This document shows, one piece after another, positions 31,011 through 35,155 of a stretch of DNA of 64,000 nucleotides. The translations under genes and the position numbers were made by a program. Position 1 is the first letter of the stretch. Each line of letters opens with the position of its first letter. Source of the stretch: Natronococcus sp. CG52 (GTDB lineage Archaea; Halobacteriota; Halobacteria; Halobacteriales; Natrialbaceae); contig NZ_CP099391.1 of NCBI RefSeq assembly GCF_023913515.1, positions 2,356,001 to 2,420,000 on the forward strand. The letters are read 5' to 3'. Below the pieces are notes generated by a model that worked only from the letters and a program-made list of their open reading frames with translations, made no database searches and was not told the origin of the DNA.

Positions 31011-32680
31011 CGGAAGAGAGAGAACACTACGAGGCCGTCGTCGTCGGCTGTGGCCCCGGCGGAGCCGCGGCGGCCGCCCGACTGGCCGACCACGGCGTCG
31101 AAACGCTCGTTCTGGAACGCGGCGTCGAGGCGGGCTCGAAGAACGTCTCCGGCGGGCTGATCTACGCCGAGGAGTCGGCGCCCTACACGATCGACGACCT
31201 CTTCGAGGGCTTTCGCGAGGAGGCGGCCGAGCGACCGGTTACCGACTACCAGATCCACAACATCGCCGGGAACAAGGTCAAGAGCTACGATCTCACCGAC
31301 CTCCACGAGCACGACACCGACTGGTGCGACGCCGTGCTCCGCCGGAAGATGGATTCGCGGCTCGAGGCCCGCGTCCACGAGAAGACGAGCGAGACGGGCG
31401 GCGGCGTGCTGACGAACGTTCGGGTGAACGGGCTCCTCCGAGACGACGGGGAGATCGTCGGCGTCACCTGCGACGAACTCGACCCGATCGAGGCGGATCT
31501 GATCGTCGCGGCCGACGGCGTCAACTCCGAACTGGCCCGCGACGCCGGGCTCATGGACTGGGAGGAACCCGACGAGTGGTTCCAAGGCGTCAAGGCCGTC
31601 GTCGACATGGAGCCCGACGTCATCGACGACCGGTTCGACATCGACGAGGACGAGGGCGCCGCCCACCTGTTCTCGGGCGACCTCTTCGAGGACGTCCGGG
31701 GCGGCGGCTTCCTCTACACCAACGAGGACTCGCTGTCGATCGGGACGGTCTTCCACCTCGACAGCCTCGTCGCGGAGCAGGCCGAGCCCCACGAACTGCT
31801 CGACGCGCTGCTCACTCACCCCGTGATGGCCCACTGGCTCGGCGACGAGTACGACGAGCGCGAGTACGGCGCAAAACTCGTCCCCGACTCGAAGAAGGTC
31901 GCCCACCGTGAGCCCTACCGCGACCGCCTCGTCCTCGTCGGCGACGCCGCCGGCCAGATGCAGGCCCAGGGCCCGATCATCAAGGGGATGAACCACGCCG
32001 TCACCGGCGGCGCGCTCGCGGCCGACGCCTTCGCCATCACCCGCGGGAACGCCGATCCCGAAGCCGCCGGCCGCCGGTACGCGAAACTCCTCGAGGAGTC
32101 GGGCACGATGGACAAACTCCGCCCGCGGCGGTACGACCTCGCCCGCACGGTCGGCGAGCGAGACGTCGTGACGAACGCCGTCGAACGCGTGCTCGACTCG
32201 CGAGTTGGGAGCCTCGCGCTCGGCAATCCCGTCGCCGATCGAGTGCTGAAGCGGGCGTACAACTCGCCGTTCCTGGTGTCGATGATTCCCGACACCCGCA
32301 CCGGCTACGTCACGGTGCCGGCGATCGTCGGCGAGGAGCACGGTCGAACGATCCGCTGGGAGAACGGCGTCGAACCGCCGAGCCTCGAGGCCCGAATCGG
32401 CGGCCTCACGTACGATACGGACGTCGGCAACCCCCACATCGAACTGCTCGACGACTCCGCGGAGGCGAGCGAGGCCGCCGTCTACGCCTGTCCCGTCAGC
32501 GCTGAGGACTTCGGCGGCGGCTGCTACCGAACCGAGCAGGTACAGACGAACGGCGACGAGGAGACGGTCGTTAGCCTCGACACTCAGCCATGCGTCGAGT
32601 GTGGCACCTGTGCGATCGTCGCCGACACCGCGTGGGAACACCCCCGCGGCGGCAAGGGCGTCGAGTACCGCGAGGGGTAA
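31007..32680 (+). CDS. fixC: FixC-type ETF:quinone oxidoreductase fused to a FixX ferredoxin domain
   Basis: The 557-residue flavoprotein starts with the FAD dinucleotide loop VVVGCGPGGAAAAARLADHG. A second FAD motif is DRLVLVGDAAGQMQAQGP. The last 70 residues form a FixX-like ferredoxin (ACPVSAEDFGGGC ... PCVECGTCAIV), which in many bacteria is a separate gene. The enzyme accepts electrons from the FixAB flavoprotein and passes them to the membrane quinone pool. It overlaps fixB by four bases and is followed directly by a small conserved gene. Confidence 0.93.
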   Translation: MTEEREHYEAVVVGCGPGGAAAAARLADHGVETLVLERGVEAGSKNVSGGLIYAEESAPYTIDDLFEGFREEAAERPVTDYQIHNIAGNKVKSYDLTDLHEHDTDWCDAVLRRKMDSRLEARVHEKTSETGGGVLTNVRVNGLLRDDGEIVGVTCDELDPIEADLIVAADGVNSELARDAGLMDWEEPDEWFQGVKAVVDMEPDVIDDRFDIDEDEGAAHLFSGDLFEDVRGGGFLYTNEDSLSIGTVFHLDSLVAEQAEPHELLDALLTHPVMAHWLGDEYDEREYGAKLVPDSKKVAHREPYRDRLVLVGDAAGQMQAQGPIIKGMNHAVTGGALAADAFAITRGNADPEAAGRRYAKLLEESGTMDKLRPRRYDLARTVGERDVVTNAVERVLDSRVGSLALGNPVADRVLKRAYNSPFLVSMIPDTRTGYVTVPAIVGEEHGRTIRWENGVEPPSLEARIGGLTYDTDVGNPHIELLDDSAEASEAAVYACPVSAEDFGGGCYRTEQVQTNGDEETVVSLDTQPCVECGTCAIVADTAWEHPRGGKGVEYREG

Positions 32681-32681
32681 C

Positions 32682-33080
32682 GTGGACCGGTACGGACCCA
32701 GAATCGCCGCGCTCGACCGCCAGGCCGAGCGCGACCGGAAAGCCTTCGATCCCGACGCGTCCGGCCCGGAGGACGGACTCGAGTACCTGCGTGAAGGGGC
32801 CGGCCAGGCGATCTGGCTCTACGTCGAGGCTCGAACCGGCGGCCGACTCGTCCCGTTCTCGGAGGCCGAGTTTACCGCCCTCGAGTCCGCGATGAACCGG
32901 TGGCTCGAGTGTTACGCCCGGTGTTACGGCGTCGACCTCGAGGCCGACTTTACGATCAGAGCGGCGGCCGAACTGCTGCTCGAGACGAGAAACGTTGTCG
33001 ATACGGCGCAGTTACTGACGGGCGTACCCGAACGGAAGCGAACGCGAGCGCCCGAAACGGGTCGCTCGACCGATCCGTGA
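32682..33080 (+). CDS. small conserved protein of the fix operon
   Basis: The 132-residue protein starts with GTG (VDRYGPRIAALDRQAERD) one base after the fixC stop. It is soluble and mainly helical, with a Trp/Cys-rich centre (MNRWLECYARCYGVDLEADF). I do not recognise a family function. Tight spacing after fixC indicates co-expression and possibly a role in assembling or coupling the ETF complex. Confidence 0.7.
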   Translation: MDRYGPRIAALDRQAERDRKAFDPDASGPEDGLEYLREGAGQAIWLYVEARTGGRLVPFSEAEFTALESAMNRWLECYARCYGVDLEADFTIRAAAELLLETRNVVDTAQLLTGVPERKRTRAPETGRSTDP

Positions 33081-33112: not shown

Positions 33113-35020
33113 TCAGGCCGCAGCCTGTTCGATCCAGCTTTCGGCGCGTTCCTCCGTCACTTCGGCGGCTTCCGCGACGGTCTCGACGTCGGCGTACGCG
33201 AGGTCGTCGAGCGTAGTGATGTCCGCATCCTCGAGACGCTCGCGGTACATCGAGTCGAGGCCGTCGACGAGTTCGAGTCGGCGCTCGAACGTCCGCTCAC
33301 GGTTCGCCGACTCCGGCGAGTCGCGTCGTCGCTGGAGCGTTCCGGTGTCCGACCGCGATCGGTCGGCAGCGCTCTTCGTCGACTGGTGCTCGGAAGACGG
33401 CTTCGGTGGCTCTATCGATTCAGCAGCCTCGACGGGATCGGGAGTCACCGCCCGGAACAGTTCGAGCCCCTGGCGCTGGAGTGCCGTCTGCCCGCGGAGC
33501 GCGCTCAGTGCGATTCTGTTGACGTCCCGCTGGACTGCGAGTCCGTCCTCGAGCAGTTGCTGGCTCTGTGCGATCGCCGTTTGCTGCGCATCGAGCATCG
33601 CCCTGACCGGCGACTCGACATCACCTCGCTCCCCGCGGCTTCGATTCGCCTCGTCGGTCACGGATTCGTTCGTCGCCGCCGGCTCGTCAGTATGCTGATC
33701 GAGCACCGGCTCCGCCCCGAGAGCCGCGTGACTCGTCGACTCCATCGAACGAGGGGCGGCCGCGTCGGACGTCGTCTCGGTGTCAGTTTGCGGACCCGGG
33801 AACGCGTCGGCGTCGACTGCGGCGCCTTTCTCGGAGTCCGTCTCCGCCGCCGGTTCGACGTCGACTCCCTGATCCAGTTCCTCGACGAGGTCCATCTCCT
33901 CGGTCGGCTGCTCGCCCACATCGCGGTCGGACGTCGCCGACGGCGCGTCCTCCTCGATCGCGTCGAAATCGACGCCTCGTTCGAGTTCGTCGGCGAGATC
34001 CATCTCCTCGGTTTCGGGCCGCTCCGGCGATCCCTCCGACCGGTCCGCTTCCGACACGAGGTCGCTCCCGCGGGATAGCTCGTCAGCCGCGTCTCTCTCC
34101 GCAGTTCGCTCCGAGGCGTCGCTCTCGGCGTCGACCGACTCGAGATCGGTGCCGCGATCCAGTTCGTCGGCGAGGTCCATCCCTTCGGTCTCGCGCTCCG
34201 CGTCTTCGACGACCTCGGACTCTGTGTCCGTGGCGTCCCCGTCGTACTCGGGTTCCGCGTCGTCAGTATCCTCGTCCGTCTCGAACGCTTCGTCACCCTG
34301 CGACTCGTCGATTACGTCCATCGATTCCGCGTCTCCGGAGCTCCCGCTCCGGCCCAGTTCGTCCGGTTCACTTCGTTCCGCGGCTTCTGCTCTCTCCGCG
34401 GTCGAGTCCGACTCCGAGGTGTCGCGGTGCTCCTCACTCGTTGCCAGTTCCTCAGGTACGTCCGTCATCTCGGCCGTCTCACCGCCCGCAGTTTCGGTCG
34501 CCTCGTCGATCGCGTCACGCACCTCACTCTCTGCCGGCGGCTCGACCTCGGGTCCGCGGTTCAGTTCGTCCTCGAGATCCTGCTCGGTCGCGGTCGTCTC
34601 CGGGGAAGGGTCCGCCGTCTCGTCCGGTTTCCGTCGTTCTCCGCCCTCGAGGCGGTCGATTTCCGGACCTCGAGTCGAAGCCTCGTCGGACTCGAGCCCC
34701 GCGCCGCGGGCCGTTTCGTCCGGTACGTCGCCCGTGGGTCCCGACTCGTCGGCCGCGGGTCCCGCCGCTTCGTCCGCTTCCAGCGGCTCCGTCCCGAGGT
34801 GAATTACCTCATCGGTGATCTCGTCGACTGCATCCGCCCGGACCGAGACGGCTTCCCGCGTTCGCGTCCACCCGAGCGTCGCCCGGATCGAGTCCATCAC
34901 GCCCGCCCTGGGTTCGACTTGCGCAACGTCGCCCTCGACCGCCGTAACGGTCCCGATAGTTTCCCCGTTCGCGTCCTCGACGGTCTTCTCGAGGTCGTCG
35001 TCCGTAAACTGTGCACTCAT
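33113..35020 (-). CDS. PRC-barrel-like / acidic repeat / helical / helix-hairpin-helix protein
   Basis: The protein has 635 residues from MSAQFTDDDLEKTV. Residues 1-75 resemble a PRC barrel. Residues 80-470 are very acidic and low in complexity, with a recurring motif D-L-x-x-E-L-x-R-G-x-D-x-E at about 148, 282, 311, 341 and 377. Residues 471-528 form an amphipathic helix with Gln-rich heptads (LDAQQTAIAQSQQLLEDG). Residues 583-634 look like a helix-hairpin-helix (LVDGLDSMYRERLEDADITT) ending in an Ala tail. The order is unusual: a scaffold or DNA-associated protein is suggested, but no function is known. It is next to phoU in the same orientation. Confidence 0.7.
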   Translation of the reverse strand: MSAQFTDDDLEKTVEDANGETIGTVTAVEGDVAQVEPRAGVMDSIRATLGWTRTREAVSVRADAVDEITDEVIHLGTEPLEADEAAGPAADESGPTGDVPDETARGAGLESDEASTRGPEIDRLEGGERRKPDETADPSPETTATEQDLEDELNRGPEVEPPAESEVRDAIDEATETAGGETAEMTDVPEELATSEEHRDTSESDSTAERAEAAERSEPDELGRSGSSGDAESMDVIDESQGDEAFETDEDTDDAEPEYDGDATDTESEVVEDAERETEGMDLADELDRGTDLESVDAESDASERTAERDAADELSRGSDLVSEADRSEGSPERPETEEMDLADELERGVDFDAIEEDAPSATSDRDVGEQPTEEMDLVEELDQGVDVEPAAETDSEKGAAVDADAFPGPQTDTETTSDAAAPRSMESTSHAALGAEPVLDQHTDEPAATNESVTDEANRSRGERGDVESPVRAMLDAQQTAIAQSQQLLEDGLAVQRDVNRIALSALRGQTALQRQGLELFRAVTPDPVEAAESIEPPKPSSEHQSTKSAADRSRSDTGTLQRRRDSPESANRERTFERRLELVDGLDSMYRERLEDADITTLDDLAYADVETVAEAAEVTEERAESWIEQAAA

Positions 35021-35155
35021 GATCGGAGCTAGCATCTCTCCGAGACAAGCGTATGCTGCCTGCATCCGCGGGGACGATCGCGGTGGTGCAACCGTCGGTT
35101 CGGTACCGTCCGAAACCGGCTGTCGGATCGTCACGGAAGAAGCGAAACGGAGCGG

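Follow-up and report, generated by a model that had tools for sequence, protein, structure and literature searches.

A haloarchaeal protein combining a PRC-barrel-like domain, a PhaP-type helix and a helix-hairpin-helix as a probable scaffold of PHA granules

In bacteria, the granule linkers PhaF, PhaM and PhaH are described as proteins that bind the granule at one end and DNA at the opposite end, according to the available text of PMC13052382 and, for PhaF and PhaM, of PMC9049629. The DNA-binding parts of PhaF (Pseudomonas) and PhaM (Cupriavidus) are histone-like in the available text of PMC13052382, and PhaH of Caulobacter crescentus (Salinas 2023) has a phasin part followed by a C-terminal helix-hairpin-helix (HhH), as the accessible parts of PMC13052382 and PMC12028471 describe it. 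On the archaeal side, the granule proteins named in the accessible portions of the searched literature are the small PhaP and the C-terminal extension of PhaC. The latter is reported to be indispensable in vivo (PMC6631277, available text), and the HhH of PhaC has already been noted in print (PMC12028471, available text).

Domain layout and the motif-bearing linker

The window analysed here is a stretch of 64,000 nucleotides from Natronococcus sp. CG52 (contig NZ_CP099391.1, positions 2,356,001 to 2,420,000). The focal gene occupies 33113..35020 on the minus strand, as established from its ORF and translation; it begins with an ATG at 35020 and encodes 635 aa plus stop. From the N-terminus onwards, the protein comprises a PRC barrel, an acidic motif linker, a phasin helix and an HhH. 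This order was proposed in a first-pass annotation of the window and was borne out by our analysis, which recovered a PRC fold, about 390 acidic linker residues, a long amphipathic helix and a C-terminal HhH. The annotation also knew of no characterised protein with this order, and in searches on archaeal HhH phasins, PRC barrels with PHA, H. mediterranei granule proteins and haloarchaeal PRC proteins, mostly outside subscription journals, no description of such a protein was found; an earlier mention is possible.

The N-domain and the helix occur within a single ORF in 30 genomes, a count taken without G070, where the gene is split over two frames, and without genomes whose locus is too short for both parts. 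Counted from the ATG, focal-type proteins have 532-757 aa in the gene set used for the upstream element, and 366 aa in G119. Five loci lie in named genomes (Natronococcus, Halovivax, Natrinema, Natrarchaeobius and Natronoglomus), and a plasmid collection gave a single weak match, to the N-terminal part. The distribution is patchy; a core division gene would differ. At L198 (G070) the gene is broken across two frames and at L190 (G061) a remnant is present, pointing to recent decay or to errors in sequencing.

Residues 1-78 (34787..35020, minus strand) form a predicted PRC-barrel-like domain. The model of residues 1-84 had a mean pLDDT of 74 and a pTM of 0.59, and structure comparison placed A. 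fulgidus PRC1/PRC2 at the top (Z 8.1 over 65 residues), with RimM (7.2) and CdpB1/B2 (Z 7.0) about level. Foldseek returned a best E of 4.2e-3 at probability 1.00 and nothing at or below 0.001. In the Pfam search, the focal protein reached no PRC match at the curated cut-off, and PRC appeared weakly in 10 of 23 aligned relatives (best E 0.021); a sequence search listing matches up to E 10 contained no CdpB chain. The PRC-barrel-like start named in the annotation therefore holds at the level of predicted fold, with moderate confidence, on comparison of the model with PRC barrels.

Residues 79-468 (33617..34786, minus strand) constitute an acidic linker of 390 aa with 34% D+E, matching the roughly 400 acidic residues reported before; judged by composition, it is presumably disordered. 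Five copies of a motif lie within it on the minus strand: DLEDELNRGPEVEP (residues 148-161, 34538..34579), DLADELDRGTDLES (residues 282-295, 34136..34177), DAADELSRGSDLVS (residues 310-323, 34052..34093), DLADELERGVDFDA (residues 341-354, 33959..34000) and DLVEELDQGVDVEP (residues 377-390, 33851..33892). The annotation had counted five copies of DLxxELxRGxDxE; the number of motif copies stands, and only DLADELDRGTDLES fits that string exactly. A relaxed core, [DE][LMVIF]x(1,2)GxD[LVI][ED], picked after inspection of the sequences, is present in 17/20 members of the protein family (absent in L039, L043 and L049); shuffled linkers averaged 0.004-0.026 occurrences each. A lack of conservation in orthologues had been set beforehand as the outcome that would refute the motif; its retention in 17 of 20 speaks for a non-random motif rather than linker drift. 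Multivalent binding by the motif array, as suggested in the annotation, is plausible. The motif was also considered as a genome-wide short linear motif and rejected as such: its DNA pattern gave 13 matches in the host genome, 3 in the focal gene and 10 scattered, with 1 match for the reversed control, and no binding partner was found by this genome-wide pattern search.

The amphipathic helix and its co-occurrence with PHA synthase

Residues 471-525 (33446..33610, minus strand) are predicted to form one 55-residue helix of the phasin (PhaP) type. Nine of its 55 residues are Gln, and its hydrophobic moment was reached by 2/1000 shuffles, which confirms the Gln-rich amphipathic helix of the annotation. 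In each of the three helices tested, those of the focal protein, PhaP and the paralogue, the hydrophobic moment peaks at 101 degrees, with a strength reached by 1-2/1000 shuffles.

A profile of focal-type helices, A1, was built from 16 of 20 (L036, L039, L041 and L045 were excluded for length variation or for lack of a pattern match) and matched the PhaP of the host genome at E 2.9e-10. Conversely, this PhaP as a single query matched a focal-type protein in G079 (E 6.5e-7) and the host's helix-plus-HhH paralogue (E 1.3e-8), and hhalign gave 94.6% (E 6.6e-8). The PhaP start NPFTAVFDAQRTAIEQSQ resembles SPVRAMLDAQQTAIAQSQ of the focal helix, significantly in both search directions. By these sequence comparisons, the focal helix is a homologue of the haloarchaeal PhaP helix.

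The pha cluster of the host, consisting of a MaoC-type gene, phaR, phaP, phaE and phaC, begins about 0.4 kb past the window end and about 30 kb from the focal gene. PhaE was identified by PF09712 (E 1.2e-8) and PhaC by a PhaC_N match and TIGR01836 above cut-off; Pfam gave no clear match for PhaR or PhaP, which were named from position and likeness to the published cluster order (PMC9049629, available text). Because it lies outside phaRPEC, the focal gene was not classed as PhaP itself. It shares with haloarchaeal PhaP of the Haloferax mediterranei type a homologous amphipathic helix and occurrence with PHA synthase; however, the host PhaP is a 160-aa protein encoded within phaRPEC, whereas the focal protein has 635 aa, is encoded outside it and adds a PRC barrel, a motif linker and an HhH.

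We then compared the helix with the synthase across genomes. In the host's taxonomic family, TIGR01836 was found in 105/125 genomes (103 over cut-off) and A1 matches in 104/125, all 104 of them synthase-positive; the 20 synthase-negative genomes gave no A1 match, and G013 carries the synthase without matching A1. With PhaP as a single query sequence, matches were obtained in 106/125 family genomes, including one synthase-negative genome, G117, weakly (E 4.0e-4). Across the host's order, synthase was present in 230/392 genomes (226 over cut-off) and the helix in 227/392; with the lists compared by hand, 220 genomes had both, 155 neither, 10 the synthase only and 7 the helix only. These seven carry PhaP-like proteins, beside a phaR in 3/7, and neither phaE nor phaC was matched over about 15 kb. 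At L241, L242 and L243, phaR-phaP pairs were observed in genomes without a synthase match, likewise with no phaE/phaC match within about 15 kb.

ORFs joining N-domain and helix were in synthase-positive genomes in 30/30 cases (P 0.0024, not corrected for kinship). The helix-synthase correlation is carried largely by PhaP itself. Of the 105 family genomes with a synthase, the focal type was verified in no more than 30, indicating that PHA storage does not need the focal protein.

The C-terminal HhH and related HhH phasins

Residues 581-633 (33122..33280, minus strand) match Pfam HHH_5 (E 3.5e-6; 27.8 bits, the cut-off being 27) and were modelled with pLDDT 89-96 (87 at the very end), which confirms the C-terminal HhH seen at first pass. 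Its hairpin reads G-L-D in place of G-h-G, the consensus expected for DNA binding, and G-[LIV]-D replaces G-h-G in 12/12 focal-type HhH domains. The host's PhaC and four other host HhH domains compared keep G-h-G; the host's type II paralogue lacks it. The labels TopA and RadA on host HhH proteins are presumed from their sequences. The loss of G-h-G in all 12 domains disfavours simple DNA tethering. The focal HhH carries 17 D+E and 4 K+R; haloarchaeal proteins are acidic in general. Its nearest solved sequences, weakly matched, are NusA acidic repeats (E 0.16), and in fold it resembles the N-terminal domain of RadA (E 0.015, probability 1.00). We read it as a protein-contact domain. Among 20 focal-type C-termini, 12 have an HhH and 8 an apparent coiled coil.

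The closest neighbours of the focal HhH are the host paralogue (70.5 bits), L141 (34.7), L145 (29.5) and, fourth, PhaC (28.3); a special tie to PhaC was dropped given this ranking. The PhaC extension resembles the focal protein in having an acidic linker followed by an HhH, in 20/20 loci judged by eye and by Pfam for the host's PhaC HhH, but differs in keeping G-h-G and in being only the fourth-nearest HhH. With Caulobacter PhaH as the available text describes it, the focal protein shares a phasin part with a C-terminal HhH; it adds the PRC barrel and the motif linker, and its own HhH lacks the G-h-G hairpin.

Two shorter types of HhH phasin were also found. The second type, of about 280 aa, combines helix, coiled coil and HhH in 7/7 loci examined and in the host's L052 protein; its members are L052:3944-4831, the host paralogue near a thiolase-like gene, L132-L138 (without L135) and L193. 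The third type, of about 340-370 aa, has helix and HhH in one ORF in 6/7 loci. Within this third type (L184-L189, L191), both of the HhH domains compared retain G-h-G.

Gene context and the proposed role

Upstream of the focal gene, the element TGCAGGCA-N6-GCTTG (35046..35064, minus strand) occurs once in the window without mismatch. In 20/20 family genes, TGCAGGCA lies 42-44 bases ahead of the start codon (50 bases in one gene), followed in most by N6-CTT. The core was present about 43 bases before the ATG in 29/29 focal-type genes and in 8/13 other genes with the same N-domain (PRC-only); this set excludes duplicates and genes with no ATG near the expected start or fewer than 75 bases upstream, and counts L199 as without helix although a weak helix is present. 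A count over 464 kb of host DNA, including the window, gave 3 occurrences of the core and a single one of the longer element, at the focal gene. A coding reading of the element was rejected: its distance to the ATG shifts by 1-2 bases, so that no frame is kept. The element probably serves as a promoter or operator site. The same rare candidate regulon site was also seen in upstream regions in L021, L023, L030, L033, L056 and L062.

A phaR-type site, CCATN3ATGG, was found in 7/9 phaR promoters, 5/8 type II and 2/7 type III upstream regions, and in 0/20 upstream of focal-type genes. This pattern is post hoc, having replaced paired CATTCA boxes after the sequences were seen, and its phaR set comprises the 9 of 20 loci in which the PhaR start was located, 11 being dropped. 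The earlier paired-CATTCA pattern, too narrow, had given 3/10 phaR (own promoter counted twice), 4/8 type II and 0/20 focal. With the phaR-type site upstream in 5/8, the HhH phasins of about 280 aa seem to belong to the PhaR regulon. Co-regulation of the focal type with phaRP was rejected on the count of 0/20; since TGCAGGCA is also found before PRC-only genes and no PhaR-type operator is present, co-regulation with PHA genes is not supported. Regulation thus ties the focal gene to PRC-only genes rather than to pha, which counts against a role at the granule.

Taken together, we consider it probable that the focal protein is a multi-domain phasin acting as a scaffold on the PHA granule surface, and a storage-granule scaffold is more likely than a chromatin or cell-division protein. 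The PhaP-homologous helix, its co-occurrence with the synthase, its one-face hydrophobicity and the combination of helix and HhH in two further protein types favour this role. Against it stand the pha cluster about 30 kb away, the phaR-type site in 0/20, the element shared with PRC-only genes, the seven synthase-less order genomes with PhaP-like helices and the weak G117 match. By analogy with PhaP, the 55-residue helix would lie on the hydrophobic granule surface, while the 390-residue acidic linker would extend outward and present its conserved motif copies to a partner. At the two ends, the PRC barrel on one side and the HhH (in 8/20 a coiled coil in its place) on the other may serve as contact heads that connect the granule with further granule proteins or with a structure that positions it. 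In this way the protein may determine the number, spacing or inheritance of granules, like PhaF, PhaM and PhaH in bacteria, and would act more likely by protein contacts than by DNA. It shares with PhaF and PhaM the proposed division of labour, one part on the granule and another on a second structure; their histone-like DNA-binding parts, as described in the available text, are of another fold. By this analogy, the focal protein should work like PhaF, PhaM and PhaH at its granule end, and the rest of it seems suited to contacts with proteins.

A granule-nucleoid tether of the PhaH or PhaF kind, with the helix on the granule and an HhH that attaches to DNA of any sequence so that granules spread along the chromosome, is possible but unlikely. 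The order of a leading phasin part and a C-terminal HhH is that of Caulobacter PhaH in the available text (PMC13052382, PMC12028471), HHH_5 scores above the Pfam cut-off and the fold is like the RadA N-terminal domain. Yet all 12 hairpins are of the G-[LIV]-D form while PhaC and four other host HhH domains have G-h-G, acidic residues outnumber basic ones 17 to 4, 8/20 members have a coiled coil instead of an HhH, and the best solved sequence match, a weak one, is the NusA acidic repeat at E 0.16. Also unlikely is a DNA-free coupling of granule inheritance to another machine, in which the PRC barrel would pair with PRC proteins (CdpB of the divisome, or the PRC-only paralogues sharing the upstream element), the helix would hold the granule and the motif array would gather a granule coat.

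The chromatin or division scaffold favoured by the first-pass annotation fares worse. Because the helix is related to PhaP and A1 is confined to synthase-positive genomes in the taxonomic family, this scaffold is not supported, and the absence of G-h-G in 12/12 HhH domains weighs further against it. A version in which the PRC barrel is CdpB-like and the helix a generic amphipathic membrane helix seems very unlikely to us: A. fulgidus PRC1/PRC2 (Z 8.1) and CdpB1/B2 (Z 7.0) do rank among the top fold matches, and the PRC proteins CdpB1 and CdpB2 act in haloarchaeal division (PMC12186497, available text), but RimM comes out about equal (7.2), the sequence search up to E 10 lists no CdpB chain and the distribution is patchy. 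Beyond the shared PRC-barrel fold, the focal protein differs from CdpB1 and CdpB2 in that this sequence search listed no match between them and in that its PRC domain is one head of a large protein. CdpB1 and CdpB2 are small stand-alone PRC proteins. Membership in the phosphate (Pst-PhoU) system, suggested by gene neighbourhood, is highly improbable. As annotated, phoU adjoins the focal gene (PF01895, E 8.9e-42), which lies downstream on the same strand, and PhoU and Fix genes flank it in the host and in L034, L035 and L042. However, L034, L035 and L042 are 3 of the 19 fetched orthologue neighbourhoods, other ortholog groups have different neighbours with some contexts shared, and the conserved element sits between phoU and the focal gene; the adjacency looks incidental, and phosphate-regulon membership was rejected on these counts. 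Beside the Fix-type genes, a 159-aa ORF (32601-33080, plus strand) has related ORFs in L034, L035 and L042; Pfam showed nothing of note in it and NCBIfam no match.

If the DNA-free coupling held, it would represent a protein-based carbonosome-positioning system of archaea. For the preferred reading as a granule-surface scaffold, the focal family and the two shorter HhH-phasin types provide a concrete, testable set of archaeal granule proteins, and the upstream element TGCAGGCA should lead to a regulator. The findings also have a bearing on PHA bioplastic production in haloarchaea.
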